Shown: positions 10,147 through 30,432 of the stretch, piece by piece
Layout: every line of letters starts with the position of its first letter
Position numbering within the stretch: position 1 is the first letter of the stretch
Source of the DNA: a virus
Direction: 5' to 3' (one strand)
Length of the DNA stretch: 30,432 nucleotides
Virus record (IMG/VR): IMGVR_UViG_3300042292_000862
Location: 1 to 30,432 of that record
Position numbers and translations under genes: made by a program
The notes under the pieces: generated by a model
What the model was told of the DNA's origin: nothing
Databases searched by the model: none
The model's input: the letters and a program-made list of their open reading frames with translations, nothing else

Positions 10147-11672
10147 TGGCAGAAAACGTAGTCAGAGATAAAGGTAGACCCAATCAATATAAATTTGATA
10201 GAGGTGGTTCGCCAACCGAAATGGGACCATTCATCGGTATTGTTGTCAACAATGTTGATCCTACCAGAAGTGGTCGTTTGCAAGTGTATATTGAAGAATT
10301 TGGCGATACTGAAAAGAGTGGTAAACCGAATTTGACTGATAAATCTTTGTGGAGAACAGTGAGTTATTGCCCGCCGTTCTTCGGCTCAACTCCGAGAGAG
10401 GAATCCCAAACATCAGACGATGTGGGAAAATTTAATGTAAACAATAATAGCTATGGTATGTGGTTTGTTCCGCCAGATACTGGTGTAAGAGTGTTGTGCT
10501 TCTTCGTTGCTGGTGATCCGAACCAAGGTTATTACGTGGGATGTATTCCTCAACCACAGTGTAATCAGATGGTGCCTGCAATTGGCGCGGTTCCGAAAGA
10601 AGAAAGATTGGAAACCAACGGCGCACAGTTGGCATATTTTAATAAAGCGCCATTGGTTCCGGTTACAGAAATCAATATAGCCAATCAAGGTATCACTGAT
10701 AATCCAAAATTCTTTGATCAGAAAAAACCAGTTCATTCTTACGTGGCGATGACATTATTCCAACAGGGGTTAATCAATGATCCAGTAAGAGGGCCGATTA
10801 ACTCAAGTAGCCAGCGTGAAAGCCCAAGCCAATGTTTTGGTATTATTACGCCGGGTAGAGGAATCTATGCTGGTAATCTAGTATTTGACAAAACGTTTTT
10901 GCGCGATGTTCAGAATGAAACACCAGAGGGTGCTCAAATTACTGGCAGACGAGGTGGGCATAGTTTGGTCATGGATGATGGTGATGCTAAAGGAAAAAAT
11001 AATCTGGTTAGGTTAAGAACAGCGCATGGCCACCAGATATTGATGAGCGATGATACCAATTGCTTTTATATCATTCATGCAAATGGACAAACATGGTTAG
11101 AATTTGGACAAGAGGGAACAGTAGATGTATTCTCCACCAACTCAGTTAATGTAAGAACAAAAGGAACAATAAACCTTCATGCAGACGAAGATGTAAATAT
11201 TTTTGCCGGAAATAAGCTCAATATGAAAAGCATGAAAGGAACCACCATGCAATCGGATGATACGCTTGATATTGCGAGTAAGGGATTGATGAGTATCTAT
11301 AGTCAATTTGAATTGGGCATAAAAGCAGATGGATTCCTTGGCATAAAAACAGATTATCTGAGCGCACAAAGTTCAACCGCTATAAATTTAGTCGGAACAA
11401 CTATTTTATTGAATAGTGGGCCACCTACTATTGTTAGCACACCCGATGGTATTACAGAATATATTTTACCCGATACTACATTTGATTCTTCTACCGGTTG
11501 GCAAGTTGACCCAACTGCACTACGAAGTATAGTATCAAGAGCGCCCACACATGAGCCATATCCTTATCATAACCAAGGTGTAAAACTGAATATATCGTTG
11601 GAAGAAGGAAAGCCATCATCAATGCCAAATGCGCCTCAAATGCCGAGTGGGTGGAGCATTACCAAGGAGTAA
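10146..11672 (+). CDS. 5: gp5-type baseplate spike protein lacking the lysozyme domain
   Basis: A 508-residue spike protein. Residues about 28-140 form the gp5/VgrG OB-fold: GPFIGIVVNNVDPTRSGRLQVYI, then WFVPPDTGVRVLCFFVAGDP and GYYVGCIP. A middle section with GHSLVMDDGD and RLRTAHGHQILMSDD (about 275-300) leads into a repetitive beta-helix (about 315-410) with short alternating-hydrophobic strands such as TKGTINLHADEDVNIFAGN and DTLDIASKGLMSIYS, like the trimeric needle of T4 gp5C. In T4 a lysozyme domain lies between OB-fold and helix; no such domain or catalytic Glu-Asp-Thr arrangement is visible here. The protein would puncture the outer membrane mechanically. It lies between the hub-like gene and the 813-residue protein. 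Confidence 0.8.
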   Translation: MAENVVRDKGRPNQYKFDRGGSPTEMGPFIGIVVNNVDPTRSGRLQVYIEEFGDTEKSGKPNLTDKSLWRTVSYCPPFFGSTPREESQTSDDVGKFNVNNNSYGMWFVPPDTGVRVLCFFVAGDPNQGYYVGCIPQPQCNQMVPAIGAVPKEERLETNGAQLAYFNKAPLVPVTEINIANQGITDNPKFFDQKKPVHSYVAMTLFQQGLINDPVRGPINSSSQRESPSQCFGIITPGRGIYAGNLVFDKTFLRDVQNETPEGAQITGRRGGHSLVMDDGDAKGKNNLVRLRTAHGHQILMSDDTNCFYIIHANGQTWLEFGQEGTVDVFSTNSVNVRTKGTINLHADEDVNIFAGNKLNMKSMKGTTMQSDDTLDIASKGLMSIYSQFELGIKADGFLGIKTDYLSAQSSTAINLVGTTILLNSGPPTIVSTPDGITEYILPDTTFDSSTGWQVDPTALRSIVSRAPTHEPYPYHNQGVKLNISLEEGKPSSMPNAPQMPSGWSITKE

Positions 11673-11673
11673 T

Positions 11674-14115
11674 ATGGTTAAGTTTGAATATACCTTACCT
11701 TCGGGTGCGAAATATGTAGTCGTTGCACCACCAGGATCAACACAAGAGCAAGCTGATGTTATTTTTTATTCTCAAGTTGCTTCTGGATCATTGGTTGGAT
11801 ACGAAACAGGACAAACGCTTACCAACGTAACTGTTACTCCGCTTACTTATGAATTAAGTAGACAAAGTAGAGGCACAGCTGGTATACCCGGAACATTATC
11901 TGGTGTTTATACATATCGTGGGCAAATAGTAACAGAGCTTTATAATAAGATTATAGGGGGATATTATAATAGAATAAATCCAGATAACTATGATCCATTT
12001 AATCCGAATCCAGGTCCCGGCCCGAATCCAGGTCCCGGCCCGAATCCAGGTCCCGGCCCGAATCCAGGTCCCGGCCCCGGCCCAAATCCTGATCCATATT
12101 GGCCTATTCCTCCCAACCCAGATCCATTTTATCCACCGGTTCCTCCCAATCCTGATCCAGTGAATCCACCGACGCCGGGTCCTGGTCCTGGTCCGGGACC
12201 AACACCGGGACCAGTGCCGCCACCAAGACCACCGGGTCCGTTACCGCCTATACCACCGCTGCCTATAGTGCCGCCTCAACCAGCACCTTCGCCGCCGATT
12301 CCGGGTGGCAGAGGACCAAATGGCAGAGAATGGGGAGATACTGTGCCACTCTCTGGTAGAGCGGGCGCGATTGTGACTGAATTATTCTCACAAACAGAGA
12401 CACCAAGCCAAGGTTATGATGGATTCTTGAGTCCGACTGAGATTGAATTTGCAGCATCGGTGATTAACAAATATCCCACGGTTCAATCAATGCCAGATTT
12501 ATCTAAGATACCGATTGAATCACCAGTTGATCAAGCCGATGTCATGTTAGCCAAGGGAGAACGCTTGGGTGCAATTCGTGTTGGTCCATTATTGCCGTTC
12601 CAAGTTCAAACATTGCAATCTCAGATAGCCAAAATAGTCAATCAACCATTTGATGAAATAAGTCAAGAAAAAGGTGTAGGTAAGTATGGGCTAACTTGCT
12701 ATCAACTTGAAGTGGGTGGATATGTTAAGCCCGGCACATCTGACCGATACATTGATCTTAATCCGATTGAATTTGAAAAAGTCATGAGTAGCCCTTCTAT
12801 ATGGACAGGTAAAAATGGTGTAAGATCACTTGACGCATATTTAGTTGCCGAAAATTTACAAGATTCAACAAATAATAATCTACTTGATGCTGGATATAAT
12901 GGATTAGTTGCTGCTGGTATAATTGAGCCACCACCAGAACGAGAAGTAACTTATGATAAATCTTGGATTTACACAAATACCGGATTACAACCATTGGGCG
13001 CAAGTTCTATTTTTATGCGAGATGAGAATGGAACAATCGGAACTGGTACATTCAGTTTAGTTCCAACAGCATATTACGAAAGTCTGACCTCAGGTGTTAC
13101 AACAGAAGATGCTACCAGCAATCAGGATTTGGGACTATACAATTTTAACAATGTTAAGAGCGGTGTTGTTAAACAGTTATACCAAGATTATGGCGCTCTT
13201 GTGACGGCATCTGGTAAATTTGGACCAGAAGTAACATCATTGTGGGCGAGTGCCGGAACAGTGGATGTGTTTAATGGCGTTATTCAGAATGTCATTGATA
13301 CTACCAATGGTGTCAACGTAGCTCTAAATCAATTGGGTGGTGTTGGATCATTGTACAATGGTGCAATAAGCACAACCAATCCGTTATCTGCGGCAAGCAA
13401 TGTCAGTAGATCAACTTACGGACAATACGCACGATATGGACAGAATCAAAATTATGTTGGATTGAGAGGTACTAGCGCAATACCTAATTCTGTGGTTCAA
13501 CAATTACTAACACCGATGACTCAAATCGGAGGTGCAATGTCTGTGTATGGAAAATCTGCTCAATACGCAATGAACTTCGCCGATCAAACAGGAGCATTGG
13601 GTGATCTATTCAGTTTTAATAGTTTATCAGATTTCGCGGCAGATTTTACTGCTGGAACCGACCCAGTGGACTTTTTAATATCGCAATTAAATGGCTCAGG
13701 CAATTTGCTAACTGGATTCACAGATGTCAATCAGTTTATCAATCAGATAGGTAGTTTTGGTAGTTTTGGTAGCATATTCAACTCGCTAAATTTAGCAAGC
13801 GCATTTGGTAGCTTGGGCAATCTATTGGGTGGACTTCAGATATTCGGTAATCTTTTTGGTGGTAATAATATTTTCACTTCAAATATTGAGTTAGGAATAG
13901 GATATAGTGACACTGTGGATAGAGCCACTGTAGATGTATCTTCTCAGAATATTTTAGGAGACCCCAAAATACCACAACCGATTTACGGGTATCCGGGTGA
14001 TTTTTGGTTGAGAATAATTTTTGATTTAGTGCGAGCAAACTCAAAGTTAAGTGATTCAGCTAAATTGGGCGATGCATTTATATCTGGTGCATCAAACATA
14101 ACAATAAGGGGATGA
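11674..14115 (+). CDS. Baseplate/tail protein with proline-glycine-rich linker, function unknown
   Basis: I start at ATG 11674, just after the gp5 stop and behind AAGGAG, giving 813 residues. An in-frame ATG at 11629 lies inside gp5 and has no ribosome site. The N-terminal domain (1-105) begins YTLPSGAKYVVVAPPGSTQE. Residues about 107-210 are almost entirely Pro, Gly and Asn, including tandem NPGPGP units, and probably form an extended polyproline rod. Next comes a domain with VGKYGLTCYQLEVGGYVKPG and PSIWTGKNGVRSLDAYL (about 330-390), a pattern I remember from other phage tail proteins without a named function. The C-terminal 120 residues include a Gly/Phe/Leu-rich stretch (SFGSFGSIFNSLNLASAFGS onward) that is strongly hydrophobic. 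It is probably linked to the spike; whether it replaces the missing lysozyme is unknown. Confidence 0.7.
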   Translation: MVKFEYTLPSGAKYVVVAPPGSTQEQADVIFYSQVASGSLVGYETGQTLTNVTVTPLTYELSRQSRGTAGIPGTLSGVYTYRGQIVTELYNKIIGGYYNRINPDNYDPFNPNPGPGPNPGPGPNPGPGPNPGPGPGPNPDPYWPIPPNPDPFYPPVPPNPDPVNPPTPGPGPGPGPTPGPVPPPRPPGPLPPIPPLPIVPPQPAPSPPIPGGRGPNGREWGDTVPLSGRAGAIVTELFSQTETPSQGYDGFLSPTEIEFAASVINKYPTVQSMPDLSKIPIESPVDQADVMLAKGERLGAIRVGPLLPFQVQTLQSQIAKIVNQPFDEISQEKGVGKYGLTCYQLEVGGYVKPGTSDRYIDLNPIEFEKVMSSPSIWTGKNGVRSLDAYLVAENLQDSTNNNLLDAGYNGLVAAGIIEPPPEREVTYDKSWIYTNTGLQPLGASSIFMRDENGTIGTGTFSLVPTAYYESLTSGVTTEDATSNQDLGLYNFNNVKSGVVKQLYQDYGALVTASGKFGPEVTSLWASAGTVDVFNGVIQNVIDTTNGVNVALNQLGGVGSLYNGAISTTNPLSAASNVSRSTYGQYARYGQNQNYVGLRGTSAIPNSVVQQLLTPMTQIGGAMSVYGKSAQYAMNFADQTGALGDLFSFNSLSDFAADFTAGTDPVDFLISQLNGSGNLLTGFTDVNQFINQIGSFGSFGSIFNSLNLASAFGSLGNLLGGLQIFGNLFGGNNIFTSNIELGIGYSDTVDRATVDVSSQNILGDPKIPQPIYGYPGDFWLRIIFDLVRANSKLSDSAKLGDAFISGASNITIRG
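12007..12078 (+). repeat. Four tandem 18-bp repeats in the proline-rich linker
   Basis: The unit AATCCAGGTCCCGGCCCG occurs four times head to tail, the last copy with one change. It encodes NPGPGP repeats and is followed by related Gly-Pro codons. The block is far richer in G and C than its surroundings and is a likely site of length change by slippage. Confidence 0.9.
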
Positions 14116-14119
14116 TGAT

Positions 14120-14494
14120 ATGACAACATTTGTTGGATACAATACTATTGGTCAAACTAAAAACTTCACGTTAGCTGGCAATAAGCTCATCATTCGTGAT
14201 TTATTGAATGCCTTTAATATACGCCAAGGTGAAGTAGTAGGACTACCTCAATATGGAACAATTTTGTGGAACTACGTTTTTGAGACCCAAACGATTGATA
14301 CTGAGAGGGCTATCTACAATGAAATTCAACGAGTATGCGCACAAGACCCACGGATATTTTTGAACTCGGCTCAATTATATCCTCAGTTAAACGGGTTACT
14401 TATTCAACTCTCTATCACTATAGCACCAGCAACAGAAGCTCAGATGTTGAATCTATTTCTGAATCAATCTACAAGATCAGCGGAATATCTGTAA
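14120..14494 (+). CDS. 25: gp25-like baseplate wedge protein
   Basis: A 124-residue member of the gp25/GpW family (T4 gp25 has 132 residues). The conserved core is visible: NKLIIRDLLNAFNIRQGEVV, GLPQYGTILWNYVFE (the family PxxGt motif) and IYNEIQRVCAQDPRI. gp25 forms part of the inner baseplate core bundle with gp6 and gp53 and helps start sheath assembly. It is the last gene of the plus-strand operon, preceded by AAGGGGA and four bases after the previous stop. Its own stop codon abuts the stop codon of the opposing endonuclease gene with no base between, so this operon has no intergenic terminator. Confidence 0.88.
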   Translation: MTTFVGYNTIGQTKNFTLAGNKLIIRDLLNAFNIRQGEVVGLPQYGTILWNYVFETQTIDTERAIYNEIQRVCAQDPRIFLNSAQLYPQLNGLLIQLSITIAPATEAQMLNLFLNQSTRSAEYL

Positions 14495-14584
14495 TCAGAT
14501 TACCCCGCTTCCGGGCGCTGTGCGTAAATTAGTTGATGTTAGTGCCGAAATAATTTCAATATCTTGCACTGTGGCTGCATTGAC
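14495..14584 (-). repeat. gp6 3'-end copy B, fused in frame to the endonuclease
   Basis: These 30 codons including the stop encode VNAATVQDIEIISALTSTN and onward to GSGVI. Against copy A at 15879-15968 they differ in 23 of 90 bases but only 2 of 29 residues (Ile/Val and Ser/Gln). Sixteen of the 18 changed codons are synonymous. Copy B directly abuts gp25, so it is probably the original end of gp6. Confidence 0.9.
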
Positions 14585-15592
14585 TTCAAGATAAGAGACC
14601 AAGAAGGCATATCTTTTTTTGAGGTCTTCTGATGTTATTAATTCGCCTGTTTCAAATCTTTTATCATCTGGATTTACCCTGAATCCTTTGCCTTCTTTGT
14701 TGTATCCCTTGATCTTTCCGTGTAGATGATAAACCACTGGCCAACCGCTTGCTTTAGCGTCAGTGGCGGTCTTTAGTTCGCCTGTCATAATCCTTGCGTC
14801 AGATGTTTTGACTCTTTGTCTCTTTCCTTTCTCGTCATAAACATACGCTGTCTCTTCTCTATGTTTTTGTCTCTTAATCGGCCATCCTAGTGCTACTGCC
14901 TCCTCTAAGGTTTTCCATTTACCTGATATTACTTCGGGATCATTCGGAAACGCTCTTATTCTTTTGCCATTGACATCGTAACGTGTTACTGATCCTCTAG
15001 CAGCTTCCCCCAGATCAATTGAATACCCTTTCTGTTTTGCCATGTCCAATGTTATTAGTTGTCCGTTTATTAGTCTTTCATCTAACGGGTGACACTTTCT
15101 TACACAACCTTCTTTTTCGTCATACGCAGCAATAAAGCCTTTGTGCAAGCTCGCCCCTCTTTTCCCATTATGAACTCCCACTATTTCACCTGTTTCCCAT
15201 CTGGGATCATCCGTGGGAACAAGTCCGATGCCTTCGCCAGTCAGTGTAATTTTGGCTGGTGCCAAGCCAAGTGTGCTGAGATAAGCAGTGTTGCCGTTGT
15301 GGCGGTTTAACCAAGCAGGATTATTGATGACATCAAACCAATGAAGAACTCTGTTCTCCCATTTCTTCGCAACCAAAATCCCCTCCTTTACTGACAAACC
15401 AGGGAATGTTTTTCTGACTGTAATTACATCTGGTTCTCCGTTGAGGTTTCTGAAATCAGTTACGTGGATTGAGGATGTAAAGTAGGTTGTCCAAAGGTCA
15501 GAGGGATGGCAATCTTGGGCGTACCTGACACCATAATACCATATTCCGAGTTGTGACCAACCGATTAGATAGGCAAAAGGTAAATTCGACAT
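14495..15592 (-). CDS. GIY-YIG-like homing endonuclease carrying a gp6 C-terminal tail
   Basis: A 365-residue free-standing endonuclease, with AGGA eight bases before the ATG. Residues 1-97 form a divergent GIY-YIG-like nuclease domain: AYLIGWSQLGIWYYGVRYA, then CHPSDLW, GEPDVITVRKTF and a WENRVL helix, a pattern I know from phage homing endonucleases. Residues 120-322 hold five degenerate repeats built around D-x-R-x-x-x-G-E/Q-L/I (near 129-137, 170-180, 217-226, 264-273 and 310-319), probably DNA-binding modules. Residues 337-365 are not endonuclease sequence: they match the last 29 residues of gp6 in 27 positions. The gene lies directly downstream of gp6 and was probably inserted into its 3' end. 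Such enzymes cut copies of the site lacking the element and spread by recombination repair. Confidence 0.75.
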   Translation of the reverse strand: MSNLPFAYLIGWSQLGIWYYGVRYAQDCHPSDLWTTYFTSSIHVTDFRNLNGEPDVITVRKTFPGLSVKEGILVAKKWENRVLHWFDVINNPAWLNRHNGNTAYLSTLGLAPAKITLTGEGIGLVPTDDPRWETGEIVGVHNGKRGASLHKGFIAAYDEKEGCVRKCHPLDERLINGQLITLDMAKQKGYSIDLGEAARGSVTRYDVNGKRIRAFPNDPEVISGKWKTLEEAVALGWPIKRQKHREETAYVYDEKGKRQRVKTSDARIMTGELKTATDAKASGWPVVYHLHGKIKGYNKEGKGFRVNPDDKRFETGELITSEDLKKRYAFLVSYLEVNAATVQDIEIISALTSTNLRTAPGSGVI

Positions 15593-15613
15593 TGTTAATT
15601 TCCTGTATTATTG

Positions 15614-15686
15614 AATGCTATACAGAAAGTAACTAAGAATTGCAATGCGGCATAAATATGCCGCTGATGTTTTTCTGTATAGCATT
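15614..15686. repeat. Nested inverted repeats upstream of the endonuclease
   Basis: A perfect 15-base inverted repeat (AATGCTATACAGAAA at 15614-15628 and its complement at 15672-15686) encloses a second hairpin, GCGGCAT-AAAT-ATGCCGC (15647-15664). A third imperfect stem follows at 15690-15719 (GCTGAT/ATCAGC plus AGAG/CTCT). The outer arms contain the CTGTATAGC promoter-like sequence in both directions. Confidence 0.85.
15617..15645 (-). promoter_or_regulatory. Possible promoter for the homing endonuclease
   Basis: On the minus strand TTGCAA (15640-15645), a 17-base spacer ending in CTG, and TATAGC (15617-15622) precede the endonuclease start by about 25 bases. The CTG before the -10 box matches the early promoters upstream of the helicase and methylase genes. 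The boxes lie within the inverted repeat of this gap. Confidence 0.4.
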
Positions 15687-15721
15687 AGAGCTGATAGAGA
15701 TTGCACTCTCGTGATCAGCAT

Positions 15722-15880
15722 TATTTATTTATTAGCAAAGAGGTCTTCGATTTCTTTTGCTTTTTCCTCTTGGTATTGTCCTGAGTTGAATTGGTAATTG
15801 AGCTAAGTTGTCCTGTTCTAATAGCAAACTCATCTGTTTCGCTAATTTTTTTCTCAAGAACAAACTCTTTCGCTCTTATC
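15722..15880 (-). pseudogene. Possible frameshifted gene remnant between gp6 and the endonuclease
   Basis: Just past the gp6 stop, another minus-strand frame reads IRAKEFVLEKKISETDEFAI followed by RTGQLSS. A different frame then continues NYQFNSGQYQEEKAKEIEDL to FANK and a stop at about 15722. Joined by a single frameshift near 15790-15810, the two pieces would look like a normal charged protein C-terminus. No start codon or complete gene is present and I do not recognise the family. It may be debris carried in with the endonuclease. Chance open frames of this size are possible. Confidence 0.3.
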
Positions 15881-15968
15881 AGATAACCCCGCTGCCAGGA
15901 GCGGTCCTCAGATTTGTACTTGTGAGTGCCTGAATGATTTCAACATCTTGAACAGTTGCAGCATTTAC
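15879..15968 (-). repeat. gp6 3'-end copy A, the functional end of gp6
   Basis: The last 30 codons of gp6 including the stop. The match to copy B begins sharply at the codon for V in IF-VNAATVQD and extends exactly through the TGA stop. The swaps TCA/AGT, CGC/AGG and TTA/CTG keep the residue while changing two or three bases each, which marks strong recoding. Confidence 0.9.
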
Positions 15969-18900
15969 GAAGATTTGGTTGCTACTGCTACGAATCTCAT
16001 ACAAGTCACCGAACGCTTTTTGTGGACTAAGCGGTACGATAACGATAGACGAAACAACATCGCCTATATTTTTATGAATGTACGAACTTAGTTCACTGAA
16101 GTAAAAAGTTTGACCAAAGGACCATAGATCAATGTTAAAGAAATTATCCATATAGGTAACTACAAGATTCTTTATCTCGCTATTGCTGACCGATGTTCCA
16201 TTGGTTGGGACAACTTTAATAATACCTCTCAATTCTTCATCAGCCTTTGCGCCAAACAACGGCTTAAATTCAACCGAGTTAACCACCATATTATCTGAAA
16301 TCATTCTATATGTTTGGAGATTTGAATATAACGTGGTCAAATAATTCATCGTTGGTGGCAACGGTTTAGGGACTGTGCCTGAAGAATCCTTAATCCAATT
16401 CTGATATGCACGATAGTATTGCAAAGTGACTACATATAAATCAATAATATTGGTGCTACCCGGATCAATCAGATTCGTCAGTGAACTGTTGTGACGATAT
16501 TGGAAATATAAATCTTGTCTACCAATTCTCGCAATAAATGATGATGTAACATCAATCAGTGTTTTTACACCAAGATAGTTCTCTGATATTTTGTAAAATG
16601 GTTGATCAATGATATCATTGTTTGGGAATTGATCGTAGGCATAAAATACTTGTCCATCAAAATACTCCTCTTTGTGCGCTTCTATTTCGCTTTTTACGGA
16701 ATACTGAACATTTACATATCCTTTTTCTACCAATAGATATCTTTCAAGATTATCAAAGTCAACCGTTTTTTGCAAGAATACTAGCTTCTCTGGTGGATTT
16801 ACTGTGGGATCAACAATAACATCAAAGAAATCTGGGTCTTTTGGAATATTATTATCTGGTGTGTTTTGATAACTCACGATTACTTGAAAATCATCTACAT
16901 AACCATCACTTTCAACCGGCTGATCAATGATAGGCATGATAATATCACTGTCTAATGGAAGATTGTTATCTGGTTTACTATTGGTTTTTAATACTTTTAC
17001 AAAATCGCGAATAGTAGTGCCGGATTTTGGATCATATATCGGTGAGTTGCTGTAAAAGAAAAATCTGGTCTCTCGGACACTTCCGAAGAAGTAATCAAGG
17101 CTTCTTGTAATTACGGTATATTTGCCATCGCGAACTGTGCCTTGAATCATCCAACTTGCGTCAAGATTCAGTCCCTCCTTATTTTGAGCATACTCTAAAC
17201 TAAACGGAGCATTGACCGCTAAATTCTGGGACGTGATGACATACCATCTTGTCTGAGGGTTAGTGTCCGCGTTATTATATCCTAATCCAAAATTTCTATT
17301 TAATACGATTTGTTGAACTACTTGCTCAATGATAGCATTCGGAATATCTGAAGCAAAGATCGGTATTACTTTGTATGCGATTGCTCCGGTTGGTACAAAA
17401 GTATCTAAAACTACTGGTCCTTGACCATTGGGTAGATTACCAAACGATGAGCTTGTACCGTCGCTAAAAATTCCTGTTGGTGAAGCCCAAATAAATTCTC
17501 TGTCATTTAATGATCCAAGTGATATAGGGACCAATCTATTTTCTGAGTCAAACACATATCCATCGGGTGCTCGAAACTGAATCAATGCGCCCACTTGAAT
17601 ATATTTTAAATTGTTTGATGATAATGGTCCGATAGAAACCGGATCTTTATTACTATTCATAAAGTATCCGGTGGTCTCGTTGACCAAGTGCGTAGATTCA
17701 TTCCAAGTGACATTTAATTGCCATAAATCCATTCTTGGAAAATTAGCGTAATAGAACTGTCTTGCGCTAATCGTGGCTACTTGTGGGTTAACGTTATTGG
17801 ATAATCCATCGTATACTTCGTTGGTTGAGAGCCAAGTAAATTCCAAAGCATTCGTTGATGTTTCTTCATATATTGCGCCATCACTTGCAAAAATGTTTGT
17901 GCTTGAATATTTTCCGGTTGGATCAACTAAATCAAGATTCCGTGAAATGCCAATCGAGGTTCTATTGATCGCTGAACTTTTGATGATGCTGTTATAAGAT
18001 GTAAATGGAAAATTGGTGTAATCCTCACCGTTGACCATTCTGTTCTGAGTATAATACCTTGCTGGTGCGCGTTGCTTAATCTGATCCAGTGATTCTCTTG
18101 CTTGTGCGTTTGTAACAGGCTCGGTTAATCCACAAGTAAACGTAATAGTCTCAATCTGACCAGTTCTACTTACATAATTTATCGGTATAACGATGCTTTG
18201 CATATTAACAGGATTGATAATATACTCCAATCCGTTGCTGGCTCTTACGTATGTTCTGAATACACCAAGAGGAATTTCCGAGAAAACACCGTCGCCAAAT
18301 GTGAGCGTAATTTGATCATTTGACCGACTGGTGATTGAATAGATTGAACGCTGTTCTGGTGGTAATTGCTCGGTGGCTGCGGTATAAATGTTCTGAACAT
18401 ATGTCCATTGTTTTGCCAAAGAACCAACATCATCCAATTGATATAACCAAACGTCTTGATTATTGATGCCTTCTATGTTAATATCAACAATTCTGTTTGA
18501 TATTTTTTCTGGTAGATTAAAGTTTTGATTTTGCAATACACCTTGCTTGAATAAGAAAAAGTATCCAGTATTTGCGCTGCCGAATCCTAATCCATCGTTG
18601 CGATAGAGCATATTGAATACACCGGACGGCGCTGGTGCTGGCTCATATGTGAATCCTTCGCTGGTTGCGATGGCATTGACCACTTCAAATGGCATATTGA
18701 TGCCATCTACGGTGGTGCTAAAGGGAACAATCGGTAAGACACCAGATACAAAATTTAATGAATATTGACTGGTGTTTACGCCCAAGATTTGAGCGGAATT
18801 TCCCGGTCTTCCCACCTTTTGTGAATCAATTAACGCTGCGTTAACAATAGTGGTGAATTGCTCTTGCCATCCATAATTGCTTGGGTCAGCCCAATTTACT

Positions 18901-19322
18901 GTGATATTGGAAAGATTTAATCCATTATAATCATATACATTTTCTGTTGTTTGAACACTGAATACTTTTAGGTAACCTTGAGATGCCGTGTTTCTTTTCG
19001 GTGTGTATCCAACGAGGTTGGCTAATCTGACTACACTGTCTCTTCGTTCGGCAGTATCTAAATAGTTCTCTCTACTTACCAAATCCGTCCTGAATGCGAG
19101 CGATTGACCCATAAAAGCCATCAAATCTAATATAGCTATTAGCTCTGAGCTTTCGGTATAATCATTGAAATTTTCCGGATAGTAGGTAGTCAGATAATCT
19201 ACAAAAGACTTCCTCAAACTTTCCCAGTCGAAACTTTGAAAATCTGCCTCCGTATAAGTTTGATATATCTGTTTCCAATTCTGTACGCCGAATATTGCTG
19301 TTTGTCTTGCAGTTTTTGCCAC
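15879..19322 (-). CDS. 6: gp6-like baseplate wedge protein, enlarged
   Basis: An 1147-residue protein starting at GTG 19322, with AGGA eight bases upstream. The N-terminal part holds the gp6 hallmark: FDWESLRKSFVDYLTTYYPE, then ELIAILDLMAFMGQSLAFR and ENYLDTAERRDSVVRLANLVGYTPKR (about residues 29-115). T4 gp6 (660 residues) dimerises into the inner ring of the baseplate and, with gp25 and gp53, forms the wedge core that triggers sheath contraction. Here nearly 500 additional residues are present; the middle contains long beta-rich stretches with no motif I can name. The C-terminal region (TNGTSVSNSEIKNLVVTYMD onward) looks like the gp6/GpJ-type wedge end. The final 29 codons appear to have been replaced by a recoded copy that arrived with the endonuclease cassette. 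Its late promoter lies at 19352-19359. Confidence 0.85.
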   Translation of the reverse strand: MAKTARQTAIFGVQNWKQIYQTYTEADFQSFDWESLRKSFVDYLTTYYPENFNDYTESSELIAILDLMAFMGQSLAFRTDLVSRENYLDTAERRDSVVRLANLVGYTPKRNTASQGYLKVFSVQTTENVYDYNGLNLSNITVNWADPSNYGWQEQFTTIVNAALIDSQKVGRPGNSAQILGVNTSQYSLNFVSGVLPIVPFSTTVDGINMPFEVVNAIATSEGFTYEPAPAPSGVFNMLYRNDGLGFGSANTGYFFLFKQGVLQNQNFNLPEKISNRIVDINIEGINNQDVWLYQLDDVGSLAKQWTYVQNIYTAATEQLPPEQRSIYSITSRSNDQITLTFGDGVFSEIPLGVFRTYVRASNGLEYIINPVNMQSIVIPINYVSRTGQIETITFTCGLTEPVTNAQARESLDQIKQRAPARYYTQNRMVNGEDYTNFPFTSYNSIIKSSAINRTSIGISRNLDLVDPTGKYSSTNIFASDGAIYEETSTNALEFTWLSTNEVYDGLSNNVNPQVATISARQFYYANFPRMDLWQLNVTWNESTHLVNETTGYFMNSNKDPVSIGPLSSNNLKYIQVGALIQFRAPDGYVFDSENRLVPISLGSLNDREFIWASPTGIFSDGTSSSFGNLPNGQGPVVLDTFVPTGAIAYKVIPIFASDIPNAIIEQVVQQIVLNRNFGLGYNNADTNPQTRWYVITSQNLAVNAPFSLEYAQNKEGLNLDASWMIQGTVRDGKYTVITRSLDYFFGSVRETRFFFYSNSPIYDPKSGTTIRDFVKVLKTNSKPDNNLPLDSDIIMPIIDQPVESDGYVDDFQVIVSYQNTPDNNIPKDPDFFDVIVDPTVNPPEKLVFLQKTVDFDNLERYLLVEKGYVNVQYSVKSEIEAHKEEYFDGQVFYAYDQFPNNDIIDQPFYKISENYLGVKTLIDVTSSFIARIGRQDLYFQYRHNSSLTNLIDPGSTNIIDLYVVTLQYYRAYQNWIKDSSGTVPKPLPPTMNYLTTLYSNLQTYRMISDNMVVNSVEFKPLFGAKADEELRGIIKVVPTNGTSVSNSEIKNLVVTYMDNFFNIDLWSFGQTFYFSELSSYIHKNIGDVVSSIVIVPLSPQKAFGDLYEIRSSSNQIFVNAATVQDVEIIQALTSTNLRTAPGSGVI

Positions 19323-28400: not shown

Positions 28401-30432
28401 TACATTACTGGTAGAAAACGTAGACTATACCTATAACAACAGCAACGAGACGCTTACGTTTATTCTCGTGCCATCACTTAAAGATAGAATTACTGTAGTG
28501 TCTGGTAGGATTATAATATCAGCCAATGTATTAAACGCAAATGATAGATATCATGCGAATTATGATGGTCGTAATGAACTGACGGTGTTGCCAGGACAAG
28601 GACCATCGTTTACTCAAATCGGATTTGATACTTATACTCAGGTTCAGAAAATCGTTAGCCCTAGACAATCTTCCTTTGCTAACTTTGGCTACTCAGTATC
28701 TATAGATTCTGCGTTCGTAAATTTGGTGGTAGGCGCTCCGAATGGAAATGCCTATGAAGAAATGTCATTTGACAATGATACAACCTACTTTGATAGTTAT
28801 AGTACAGTATTCTCGGATGTCATCTTTGGATGTGGTGTTGCATATACATATGATTATATGAACTCAGTTAATGCCTCTATTAGTAATCCGGGCAAATTCA
28901 TTTTTGGACAGCAAGTTTATAATAGAAATCTGAAGAACTTGGATAGATTTGGTCTGGCTGTAAATTATGTAACTGAAAGCCTCATCATAGGTGCTCCGAC
29001 CAGTTCAAATAAAAATAATGTAAACACTGGTAAAGTATATGTTTATAAAAATACCAACAATCTTCCGAGTTGGCAAGTCAATCATATAGAAACTCCTCAA
29101 GTAGATTCGCACACAATCAACTCTACGTTTATGTATGACCGACTGGTTGGTAGTTGGCAACAATACTTTGATTGCATCAATCCCCTTCAAGGAAAAATAT
29201 TAGGTGCTGCGGCTCAAAATATTGATTATATTGGTGCCGTTGATCCTGCGAACTATAATGTCGGTGTTATTCATAACATAGGCGATAGTTGGGGTGAAGA
29301 TCAATTGGGAAAAATATGGTGGGATACTGATACCGTAAGATTCTTAAATCCATACCAAAACAATATCAACTATGCAAGTCGTAGATGGGGACAAATATTC
29401 CCCGGAAGCACTGTGGATATTTATCAATGGGTCGTGAGCAATGTGCCGCCTATAGCCTATACTGGTGCTGGTGTGCCGTTGTCAACGACCACATATACTA
29501 TGCGTTCAACAATAAACGAGCAAGGATATTACAATGTAGAATACTACTATTGGGTGAGAGGTCTAAGCACTGTTGAATATAAGTATGGCAAAACTTTAAG
29601 CTCAAATGTTATATCTCAGTATATCAGTGATCCTCGCTCAAGCGGTATACCATATATCGCTATTCTTGGACCAGGTCAAGTGGCAATCTACAATGCTTTG
29701 AATTACATTTCTGCGGCTGATACGATTCTTCATATTGACTACGATCAATCGCCCAATGATGATTGTATTCATACTGAGTATCAGACGATTCTTACCAACG
29801 ATGGTGATTCATTCTTAACTGATGTAGTTTATAGAAAACTAATAGATAGCTTCGCTGGCTCAGATGTAAGTGGCAACAATGTGCCCGATCCTATGCTGAG
29901 TCCTGGTGAAAAATATGGTGTTCAATTTAGACCACGTCAATCAATGTTCATTGACAGATTTTCTGCATTGCGAGATTACTTGACTGCTGCCAATACTATC
30001 ATTAACCAGTATCCTGTTTCTGAATCAAAGTCAATGTCGTTATTGTTTGCACAACAAGCAATTCCGCCGGCAAGAGAAGGAAGTGTCATAATATGGAATG
30101 AATCAGTTCCAAACAATCAGATTTTGGAATATCAAGATATTGCTGATAAACCAGATGGATATCGTTATCTTGTTGACTCAAACAGTAATTATAGAGGATA
30201 TTGGACAGTACTTGAAATAGATAGAACACTAACAGAAACATTTAAGTTGGTGATGATTCAATCATATTATACACCAAATTACTGGAATTATGTAAATTGG
30301 TATGAAATAGGATATGATCCAAACACAGAAATAGTGGCAGAAGTTCCATATTATGCTGCCTTGCAATCACTATCAGAAGAAATTGCCCCAGTAGATAGTA
30401 CGGTTAAAGTGACTACAAATAGTCGCGGAAAG
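19450..30432 (+). CDS. Giant virion structural protein with FG-GAP propeller, open at window end
   Basis: The frame from ATG 19450 stays open to the last base: at least 3,661 residues, with the C-terminus outside the window. Residues about 211-303 look cupredoxin-like: NPELILVRGKTYYFNLN, then YENGVYRNGAPNGQIIF and LYYVCADQENMRGKITV. A block near 610-720 (AWSRSNRWFHRDVI onward) recalls large structural proteins of marine T4-like phages. Around 1926 a short W-x4-Y-x2-G motif resembles a chitin-binding CBM5/12 core. Seven FG-GAP-like repeats begin near 2338, 2398 (degenerate), 2453, 2726, 2855, 3079 and 3167, suggesting a seven-bladed propeller with long insertions. After it comes IWWDTDTVRFLNPYQ and RRWGQIFPGS. 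It is probably a baseplate or fibre component. In T4, gene 7 follows gene 6, but I see no gp7 homology. Confidence 0.75.
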   Translation, partial: MAKIRTVDFLPNIFQTSSNKQFLAATLDQIVQNPEFRRVEGFIGAKIGPGVNPDDAYVVEPTPEREDYQLDPCVVSLKPDTNTLKDAITYPGILDTIKLQGGVVNNADRLFDSQYYSWDPFVDFDMLSNYGQYFWLPEGPSAVTVSATDVPTTNKFYVKRENGSYSFDKVKGNDPTITLARGGTYTFVVDQSYKEVKSFDVRPNYDIPDSAFMINRQKNPELILVRGKTYYFNLNLPKAKYPFCIKTEDTLGFGALYENGVYRNGAPNGQIIFVVPQTAPNELYYVCADQENMRGKITVVDPVEGEGPGFWIQTQPGTSGVLPEANNISSRDVLGVVNNGSNTGEITFNVPLVTAQKFYFEDLTQIDSVDLISFDLTYDDIQDLAVNDFILRYPDGIDGITNLNGRTILFSESNDVNISRWTIWKVITEIKTGINSFELVNVGTLGELEKTEIRFGEQYSRTSWYHEVDELKRIPLLTATLDTLYYQDSIDSTMYGKIKLINQDLSSTILIDEIIGAKNYISPNGVQFTNGLKVTFQGSVEPSAYIGKEFYVEGVGVSIQLIPVERFVTPEQCFRNLPIPYDFWAYDIGGYDGYLHAPIDPEYVVSSRTSLDRNAWSRSNRWFHRDVILATNYYNRKTNLNVELDSFVQAKRPILQFRGSTKLFNFGTYGLDPISVIDFDTRDALLEVNGESAYVVDGYSLKEGSTVIFAGDLNPEVRRTIFRVRFINPEPVNNGNYDILPYAMTPFSAPTVPWSAVIYLDPIYVCEPNDSTVCLEGQYPDDYHTKFLSGNYDMAPYASTPYDSPASEKQNPYNGGVKGVTFYYDGLVWVYAQQMEKIYQPILFDIFNQSGFSLADRDAYPSSTFTGSELFSYAVGTGNDDPVIGIPLKYLNIQNIGDLVFENDLYTQTFSYVKNSTAFNENVSIGFVRQYSSRVDYDLEIGWQNGITNSIDRQISQFKYDAQPVRLDVEIDILENVNSLAIFINGLFIEPSRYDLITVYGKTQINWKDVYPLNSTIEVIYYSSQVSTDGHYQIPMNLANNPLNGNSPQFSLGTIRNHYDTIAITVPGLEGKINGANNSRDLGNLVPYGLQILQQSSPLTLAGYFMRDKEYDIFGSLAFNDREYTQFKNQLLSTVANNEFGYMNPSDILDSCISRINLGKTNIDPFYWSDMLPVGADYTEQVYKINALSTGVFGTGQVYDFTSANFKGLSIYVTEFDLQENSVTRLLERGSEYLVSQVEPIVTVLVNLPIGSIVTVREYPHTQANFVPNTPTKMGLYPKYKPMIYYDTTYVKPHLMIQGHDGSLTLAFGDIRDQVLLEFEKRIYNNIKLDGNPVPMLSSDVIPGFFRTTDYSKEEIVSILEIDFLSWVGNNRLDYRSQDYIANNAFTYNYSECGTKLDSDFQVNNFEEERMPGAWRGIYRYFYDTTNPARTPWEMLGFSEQPCWWCDRYGPAPYTSGNLVLWEDLENGYVADPAGPYYLPKYARPGLTNVIPVDEEGTLIAPLYSVVGQFNEFSFKKSWTVLDGGPTEYAWWTSSSYPFAVMRLLALTQPAEFFSLFIDRDLYRYDSELNQYLYNGRYRVGPQNVEIYGNGVSKASYINWIIDYNKQLGRDSTTLLTENLRYLTVKMGYRVGGYTDHEYLTVYADHALPGSANDSQKIPVENYSITLYKNQPNKQLVYSAVTIEVIDGGYRIGGYDTIRPYFKAFISQSSGILRTITTGGITVQVPANYTDKIAVIPYATVFSNDAMVVDFILSYGLYLESIGMSFQSIENGKVMDWNQMAEEFLYFSGQNWAIGTVIALNPAGIKFTVTTPGEVADTIESVVPENMILDQYRVALPTREINIERLENNLTLESPTGRTLSFARLRFVQFEDIIIIDNNTVFNDLIYDPITGARQSRLLINGWVTTEWNGTMNAPGFILNRQETVQEWKSNKKYTKGQIVLFKNNYWSALEIIQPKEKFEYSEWIISDYSKINTGLMLNPPNMSDQLANSYDVYDANLNIDQDLLSFGLIGFRPRKYMSDLNLNDISQVGLYQQFLGSKGTPRSVEAFTYADLGKEQGSYKVKEIWAILSSTYGANANKSFVEFRLNETYLTSNPCTLQVVRPFQISDADQTFLVSDLWRTSAVVTTPDIFPTSLRDYSETALPSAGYVDIEDADITVFDINDPSSILNKIDTVGVGTIIWAAKSNNYDWNIYRCEVMSSQITQVSNNLNGTSIVQFKGIHGLKIGDLIIIRYVNTSIDGVYRVLDVTGINTIIIAYNFTNSNQSTVYCTALAFRMETTRVKQPSDIASLPYVNNLTFDSKVWVDNNGDGLWEVIEKVQPFDFKQNLREKASEQDSYFGYSVSQSYDGKMAIIGAPGANAGNGQVEFFKLAIDPNNIKDQPYEFIDDIRSNAEDTKALGCATSLGKDAWLAIGANQSYNGVGYVLTLTKESSLTGLYGDQQLLIPDSLDPINFGSSVSVSFNEQWLYVGAPISNQVFAYARIDVPSEAVVYVADGSQRRFNYSLHCLIDSDYPEQLQILVDNLNLEYPYDYRLDNGDVVLTAIPNKLQEVKISRRIGKLMNQYIFKDVETIGGSGTDATFDVGVTSGEYSVAILNNGVNYKIGDTLTINGNLVGGVTPTNNITINVTKVDKFGNIISFNYAGQAIYNNQSYELRQYFYSVSSVYSFVVTLNAKIQRPFIDYTYDPLTTTITFVNVPAEGVDITVRADSYWELTNVLNGNVSSLAKFGYAISSSGQGRQLIVGAPYDDLNGLAVGSTTLYNKTMFAYNVKDSNQRIYDIPEYNNGPITVSINGTLLTNKKYSVLGQYQVIETSPTKYAVELSPWVSLGLGDNIDIDTSIITQVQKFTTGQKVTSQFGNSLDFAPTNNEFFVGAPADNSSYEQSGSVYRYLNQSRTYGTTVSTNCNPVLTAGSYILVNGSLIKIKSSPKNTIEELIISINSSDIPNVTAKATSNAVFYGNGKDKTYNIGNIYSSAASYNTKVYLNNTLLVENVDYTYNNSNETLTFILVPSLKDRITVVSGRIIISANVLNANDRYHANYDGRNELTVLPGQGPSFTQIGFDTYTQVQKIVSPRQSSFANFGYSVSIDSAFVNLVVGAPNGNAYEEMSFDNDTTYFDSYSTVFSDVIFGCGVAYTYDYMNSVNASISNPGKFIFGQQVYNRNLKNLDRFGLAVNYVTESLIIGAPTSSNKNNVNTGKVYVYKNTNNLPSWQVNHIETPQVDSHTINSTFMYDRLVGSWQQYFDCINPLQGKILGAAAQNIDYIGAVDPANYNVGVIHNIGDSWGEDQLGKIWWDTDTVRFLNPYQNNINYASRRWGQIFPGSTVDIYQWVVSNVPPIAYTGAGVPLSTTTYTMRSTINEQGYYNVEYYYWVRGLSTVEYKYGKTLSSNVISQYISDPRSSGIPYIAILGPGQVAIYNALNYISAADTILHIDYDQSPNDDCIHTEYQTILTNDGDSFLTDVVYRKLIDSFAGSDVSGNNVPDPMLSPGEKYGVQFRPRQSMFIDRFSALRDYLTAANTIINQYPVSESKSMSLLFAQQAIPPAREGSVIIWNESVPNNQILEYQDIADKPDGYRYLVDSNSNYRGYWTVLEIDRTLTETFKLVMIQSYYTPNYWNYVNWYEIGYDPNTEIVAEVPYYAALQSLSEEIAPVDSTVKVTTNSRGK
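26461..29040 (+). other. Seven FG-GAP-type repeats (predicted integrin-like beta-propeller)
   Basis: Within the giant protein the pattern FG-x-S/A-V/I ... V/I-G-A-P ... G-x-V-x-x-Y recurs. Examples are FGYSVSQS with IIGAPGANAGNGQVEF (26461), FGSSVSVS with YVGAP (26806), FGYAISSS with IVGAP (27625), FGNSLDFA with FVGAP (28012), FGYSVSID with VVGAP (28684) and FGLAVNY with IIGAP (28948). A weaker unit, LGCATSLGKDAWLAIGANQS, lies at 26641. About 270 residues separate units 3 and 4, and about 220 separate units 5 and 6; both gaps could be inserted domains. Seven units is the integrin-alpha number. Confidence 0.75.
28033..28064. repeat. Perfect 11-bp hairpin inside the giant gene
   Basis: GCACCAACGAA (28033-28043) and its exact complement (28054-28064) flank a 10-base loop. 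The arms encode parts of an FG-GAP unit, including VGAP. It may affect translation or mRNA processing, or may be chance. Confidence 0.8.

Follow-up and report, generated by a model that had tools for sequence, protein, structure and literature searches.

A homing endonuclease cassette with a divergent replacement gene end in the baseplate wedge gene gp6 of a jumbo phage, and the same layout at other phage genes

Main finding

In a jumbo-phage contig we identified a gp6-like baseplate wedge gene in which the native 3' coding end has been displaced and a divergent one stands in its place. Very probably, a cassette composed of a foreign in-frame gp6 end and a free-standing GIY-YIG-like homing endonuclease invaded gp6, and the gene was rescued by the end that came with the invader. 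This reading was derived from sequence comparison, and cleavage, homing, expression and rescue are inferred. The insertion, the in-frame replacement by a divergent end, the orphaned native end, the recurrence of this layout and the horizontal spread of such ends can be seen directly in the compared genomes. Judged by the arrangement of their loci, related endonucleases appear to follow the same strategy in about ten other phage genes, at either the end or the start. We further lean towards the broader view that these are widespread phage homing elements which invade 3' or 5' coding ends with a cleavage-proof, naturally divergent replacement end, act as natural home-and-rescue drives, leave orphans and scars, and spread mobile ends after the endonuclease has been lost.

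Table 1. Features of the window and loci where the end or start of a gene is duplicated across a related endonuclease
Feature	Position or locus	Strand	Remarks
Source record IMGVR_UViG_3300042292_000862 (window)	1 to 30,432		30,432 bases
gp25-like baseplate wedge gene	14120..14494	+	convergent, abuts copy B stop; PF04965 GPW_gp25 E=7.5e-07; junction identical in L003
Copy B, native gp6 3' end, now orphan	14495..14584	-	fused in frame to endonuclease ORF
Endonuclease ORF including copy B	14495-15592	-	runs in frame into copy B
Whole inserted cassette	14582..15987	-	1,406 bp; divergent gp6 end, hairpin spacer, endonuclease
GIY-YIG-like homing endonuclease proper	14585..15592	-	336 aa; catalytic domain in about residues 1-100, followed by about five repeats
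Spacer, gp6 stop to endonuclease start	15593..15878	-	286 bp; absent from L003
Strong RNA hairpin	15614..15686	-	just upstream of endonuclease; 15-bp outer stem, inner GCGGCAUA stem
Copy A, cassette-borne replacement gp6 3' end	15879..15987	-	about 36 codons, in frame; duplicated part 15879-15968
gp6-like baseplate wedge gene, chimeric	15879..19322	-	1147 aa; native up to 15988, foreign end 15987-15879
DNA ligase, end duplication	L076		strong; 20/29 positions including stop
Exonuclease, end duplication	L031/L032		strong; 34/58
Unassigned gene, end duplication	L046		strong; 14/19, stop at both ends
RNA ligase, start duplication	L330		strong; 38-residue near-identical match, score 158
RegA, end duplication	L052, L116		shorter, well placed
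Phosphoesterase, end duplication	L088/L090		shorter, well placed
SPFH-like gene, end duplication	L041		shorter, well placed
phrog_11903, end duplication	L328		shorter, well placed
UDP-glucose dehydrogenase, start duplication	L345, L373		shorter, well placed
NAD-synthetase-like gene, start duplication	L017 (isolate RHph_I1_18)		shorter, well placed

The gp6 gene and its duplicated end

The window, by which we mean the whole stretch of 30,432 bases analysed, is from a member of a jumbo-phage lineage (giant phages), and its gp6 is 30-34% identical to gp6 of RaK2, 121Q and Atu_ph07. The gene was assigned by its profile match (phrog_10646 baseplate wedge subunit, E=6e-267) and by fold comparison, which gave T4 gp6 (3h2t) and other baseplates. 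It is a single uninterrupted full-length ORF, with the same number of residues as in the close relative L003 described below. On the plus strand, a hub-like ORF at 11629-14115 contains a proline/glycine repeat tract (PNPGPGPNPGPGP...) with an 18-bp repeat-unit indel relative to L003, and a reading frame of 3,661 aa with FG-GAP repeats (PF14312), a giant virion protein, runs from 19450 open to the window end at 30432; its start is also present in L003.

The last 29 codons of gp6 together with the stop occur twice on the same strand, with 67/90 bases and 27/29 residues identical, as an earlier note on this DNA had claimed. Its count of 16 synonymous changes among 18 altered codons was likewise reproduced: 12 codons are identical between copies A and B, 16 differ synonymously and 2 change a residue (V/I, Q/S), and third codon positions account for 16 of the 23 base differences. 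Beyond codon 29 on the upstream side and beyond the stop on the downstream side, similarity ends abruptly; the match is far above chance (tblastx 63.4 bits, E about 1e-13). In 513 control gene ends without an endonuclease, a score of at least 60 was reached by nothing other than a tandem paralog and the ligase scar discussed below, and 0/513 had an unexplained downstream copy at that score.

The empty site and the order of events

The gp6 search returned a sole close contig, L003 (IMGVR_UViG_3300043425_001255), which is the only near-identical one with an empty site. Its identity to the window is 98.4% in one flank (7.4 kb) and 97.6% in the other (3.5 kb); it has no endonuclease, and its uninterrupted gp6 ends with the stop directly against convergent gp25. 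Identity in the alignment extends up to window position 15988 and resumes at 14581, and in between 22 bp of L003 (TCAACCAAATGAGATTTTTGTT; L003 7336-7357) are replaced by the 1,406 bp of the cassette, a net gain of 1,384. Copy B matches the L003 gp6 end at 87/87 bases (14495-14581). The part of gp6 next to copy A is more than 99% identical to L003, and within the last 90 bases copy A and the native end disagree at 23. An alignment of this kind with an endonuclease-free relative had been proposed in the earlier note, which took copy B, abutting gp25, for the ancestral gp6 end; the L003 gene bears this out, with copy B bases at its end and the same junction to gp25. The proposed insertion of about 1,384 bp upstream of the last 29 codons held as to net size and order of events; the foreign part of gp6, however, amounts to about 36 codons and not 29, because 22 bp of native gp6 were replaced as well, in a stretch starting at 15987.

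The cassette sits at a conserved position, within the codons for QPNEIFV|NAATV. The 22 bp of L003, which are absent from the window gp6, encode residues shared by the family ('(S)xPNEIFV' / 'S-Q/A-P-N-E-I-F-V'), and L003 is therefore not a deletion product of the window. On these comparative grounds we regard the polarity as settled, with the empty site first and the cassette inserted later. In more distant gp6 genes, of which about 70 complete ones were compared (40-64% identity), the end occurs once and no such endonuclease lies nearby. Endonuclease-free relatives with both copies, which would have spoken against the insertion, were thus not met for gp6 in any of these genes. They do occur at the DNA ligase (L173, L176), where they are best read as scars left after loss of the element. 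In the gp6 model the insertion point lies within the conserved C-terminal domain, in a confidently modelled part (residues 318-331, pLDDT 83-93), so that a gp6 merely truncated there would lose conserved structure. That gp6 requires its own end remains an inference, as gp6 function was not tested. Two further differences between the window and L003 were observed: a 29-bp patch in gp25 (14286-14314) with 11 differences, about 270 bp from the insertion and in near-identical surroundings, and a second dense SNP cluster in the N-terminal region of gp6 (L003 4000-4600).

Origin of the replacement end

Compared with 46 other gp6 ends, copy A and copy B show the same distance (59/90 bases in either case), and the closest match of each is the other copy (67/90), which points to an unsampled sister lineage as the source of copy A. 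The earlier note had called this end recoded. Pairs of gp6 orthologs with 27-29/30 matching positions share 68-80/90 bases (5th-95th percentile), and the 67 bases shared by A and B fit such an ordinary ortholog, so no special recoding is needed. Copy A is therefore best seen, from its sequence, as a naturally divergent ortholog from that putative sister lineage. Codon usage did not separate it from copy B. The donor was not found: at the nucleotide level, isolate phages showed only a weak 170-bp match to the complete cassette, and a degenerate DNA search for the peptide common to both copies returned only L003 and the distant gp6 of L012.

The endonuclease and the spacer

The enzyme matches PHROG homing endonuclease families, and its N-terminal domain has phage homing endonuclease homologs with 37-52% identity (51% to that of Variovorax phage V45v66). 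The GIY-YIG catalytic residues Y8, Y19-Y20-G21, R23, E79 and N96 are invariant or nearly so, and the repeats after this domain form about five modules of the type 'D..GK..RV..D.R..TGEL'. The assignment of the window enzyme to the GIY-YIG family has modest support. The match to phrog_5123 (E=2e-4), however, runs through residues 105-142, SegE_GIY-YIG was matched by 1/15 relatives (E=0.009), and a Pfam search of the window endonuclease gave no match, GIY-YIG included. Against the PDB there was no profile match and no significant fold match, the latter with a low-confidence model (pTM 0.33), in which the copy B tail is also of low confidence (pLDDT <50). No close relatives were detected in a single-protein search of viral contigs; the nearest full-length relative is the second endonuclease of L041 (33% over 337 aa), and the relatives that were found are phage proteins.

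In the spacer, the hairpin region (15590-15725) has a folding energy of -40.2 kcal/mol (z = -5.5 vs shuffles), and an Rfam search gave no intron match. Since gp6 is one uninterrupted ORF that ends before the endonuclease, the view that the gene was invaded without an intron or intein can be upheld. In most of the 3'-end cases described in the next section the endonuclease and the host gene lie on opposite strands, and for this reason the in-frame fusion of the window enzyme to copy B is probably incidental.

The same layout at other phage genes

In a set of 149 non-redundant related endonuclease domains (110 + 39) from viral contigs and isolates, we asked whether the end or start of the gene beside the endonuclease is repeated on the far side of the latter. 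Such a duplication across the endonuclease was found at about 13 loci in 11 host-gene families, gp6 included (Table 1); the gp6 locus of the window counts among the strong cases. The 99.5th percentile of the score for mismatched pairs was 45.8; L328, L345, L373, L116, L052 and L088/L090 lie below this value, and what speaks for them is their location next to the endonuclease, at the corresponding end of the gene. Several cases comprise matches of only 9-20 residues and are individually weak.

Other matches were rejected: those of L094 and L087 are neighbouring endonuclease genes, those of L010 and L053 repeated leader or intergenic sequences, and the match of L041 at 2352 is an exact contig-end repeat, while those of L020, L077 and L109 look low-complexity or wrong-frame. 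The related enzymes in the split genes PX29 gp17 and KARL-1 nrdA were set apart as a different strategy. In Aeromonas phage PX29 (L011), a related endonuclease lies between two annotated pieces of terminase that carry the description of N- and C-intein halves, an arrangement that is a different solution to the same invasion problem. In L041 (368-3383), an SPFH-like gene stands between two endonucleases of the window's family.

Stages of invasion and loss at the DNA ligase

Comparison of 80 ligase loci revealed empty and invaded genes, a scar after endonuclease loss, and genes with the K-type end alone. Endonuclease-free ligases mostly end with '...TYSLRFPRFVRFRDDK'. The invaded ligase of L076 has the K-type end '...SYSLRFPRFKTFRYDK', with the endonuclease behind it and, beyond that, the orphan '...TYSLRFPRFVRFRDDK' followed by a stop, i.e. 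the end of the endonuclease-free ligases. In L173 (3500-3790) and L176 (3047-3300) both ends are found about 80 bases apart with no endonuclease, which is best read as the scar of a lost homing element. The body of the L076 ligase is nearest to the V-type L164 (77%) and its last 90 codons to the K-type L188 (84%); the ligases of L177 and L173 make the same V-to-K switch with other V-type bodies (82-83%). V-type bodies with K-type ends imply that replacement ends moved between ligase lineages, and such ends outlive the endonuclease and spread horizontally between phages. A further arrangement was noted in L053 (also in L324 and L188), where the ligase has an endonuclease on each side and the two endonucleases share a leader of about 100 bp; no orphan end was found at the L053 ligase.

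Alternative explanations

Two same-strand copies of one gene end with a nearly unchanged protein could also result from a tandem duplication of the gp6 end in this genome, after which the copies drifted synonymously and an endonuclease was inserted between them. Copy B, however, agrees with L003 at 87/87 bases and copy A differs at 23/90, yet the surrounding 11 kb are about 98% identical; copy A moreover starts inside the replaced 22-bp stretch and not at a duplication boundary, and the relatives have a single copy only. We consider this course of events very improbable. Equally improbable is the reverse order, in which L003 would be derived by deletion of the cassette from a window-like ancestor. 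Endonuclease loss does occur at the ligase site (L173/L176), but the 22 bp of L003 with their family consensus could not have come from the window gp6, which lacks them, and a crossover between A and B would leave an end composed of both.

Passive mosaicism, by which recombination brought in the endonuclease along with a neighbouring gp6 end that is not needed for homing or rescue, is in our judgement unlikely. It is favoured by the resemblance of copy A to an ordinary ortholog and by the SNP clusters elsewhere in gp6 and gp25, which show recombination in the lineage, but the recurrence of the layout speaks against it: the native end is orphaned beyond the endonuclease at about 13 loci, which represent 11 families and include gene starts as well as ends, against only the tandem paralog and the ligase scar in the 513 control gene ends. 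As both contigs are metagenomic, with one contig per allele, an erroneous assembly of two phage strains from the same sample can be imagined; given the clean junctions, the reading frames that are all open, and the homologous architectures in contigs unrelated to these and in the genome of an isolate (L017), it can practically be dismissed. Invasion of gp6 by a cassette that supplies its own gene end is the explanation we retain.

Proposed mechanism and implications

During mixed infection, the enzyme would cut the joined native site of an uninvaded gp6, and repair from the invaded phage would copy the cassette into the cut gene. The supplied end would keep gp6 functional, and the invaded allele would no longer be a target, with copy A changed and copy B deprived of the left half-site. 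All of these steps, cleavage included, are inferred. Self-immunity of the invaded site, which the earlier note had proposed, is plausible because neither copy in the window keeps the joined native site; it is untested.

A selfish endonuclease may thus have a further route, beside introns, inteins and split genes, into the coding sequence of an important phage gene. Footprints of homing could explain the duplicated gene ends and sudden breaks of identity in phage genomes, and in these elements nature would provide a counterpart to engineered home-and-rescue gene drives that also shows the aftermath of drive loss. Several of the invaded genes, namely DNA ligase, RegA, RNA ligase and gp6, are from families that have been studied in T4, so that the idea is open to direct testing.

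Comparison with known systems

Gene-end replacement is known in outline from fungal mitochondria; in phages it is apparently undescribed, and recurrent there. No phage case of a gene-end-replacing endonuclease was found in the open-access literature, subscription papers being outside the search. The fungal cases are mORFs with inserted C-terminals, in atp6 of Allomyces macrogynus and in atp6, atp9, cox2 and nad3 of Glomus sp.; there a divergent C-terminal has been inserted, the native one agrees with that of a relative, and transcripts of the hybrids occur (PMC3630166). For atp6 the native end has 91% and the inserted one 64% nucleotide identity, with mostly synonymous changes, and the atp9 case involves a GIY-YIG enzyme (PMC3630166). 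As in these mORFs, the phage element brings a divergent in-phase gene end and an endonuclease, and the native end persists downstream, near-identical to that of an element-free relative. The gp6 cassette also has the mORF features that can be read from sequence, namely an ORF inserted in a gene end (here with L003 as the empty site), an end in phase and divergent, and a retained native end. In contrast to the fungal systems, which concern organelle genes and mostly LAGLIDADG enzymes, it is tailed-phage genes that are invaded here, by a phage GIY-YIG-like family; the endonuclease is often antisense to the host gene, and gene starts as well as ends can be replaced.

The seg and mob enzymes of T4 and its relatives resemble the present ones in being free-standing phage endonucleases beside conserved genes, with co-conversion of flanks, and differ in that the known examples are located beside genes; a text search of a review on them gave no mention of gene ends that are duplicated or replaced (PMC2988022). 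The searched text of a second review or survey of such enzymes contained no gene-end replacement either. Group I introns and inteins are of another type, as here no splicing element rejoins a split gene and the gp6 ORF ends before the endonuclease. For insertion into a split gene, we take nrdA of phage Aeh1, invaded by mobE, as the example. In this type, the gene works as two polypeptides. Like the gp6 cassette, it has an endonuclease gene within the coding region of an essential gene and no intron, whereas gp6 does not consist of two complementary pieces and is one uninterrupted ORF to which a new end was supplied; a split reductase gene is mentioned in PMC10448857.

The closest engineered analogy is with 'home-and-rescue' gene drives, synthetic constructs whose target is recoded (reviewed in PMC8996256); they likewise combine a nuclease with a differently coded, cleavage-resistant stretch that restores the disrupted essential gene; in the phage, resistance and rescue are inferred. 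Whereas those drives are engineered and act in diploids, the phage elements would be natural, would use a divergent ortholog and would depend on phage co-infection.
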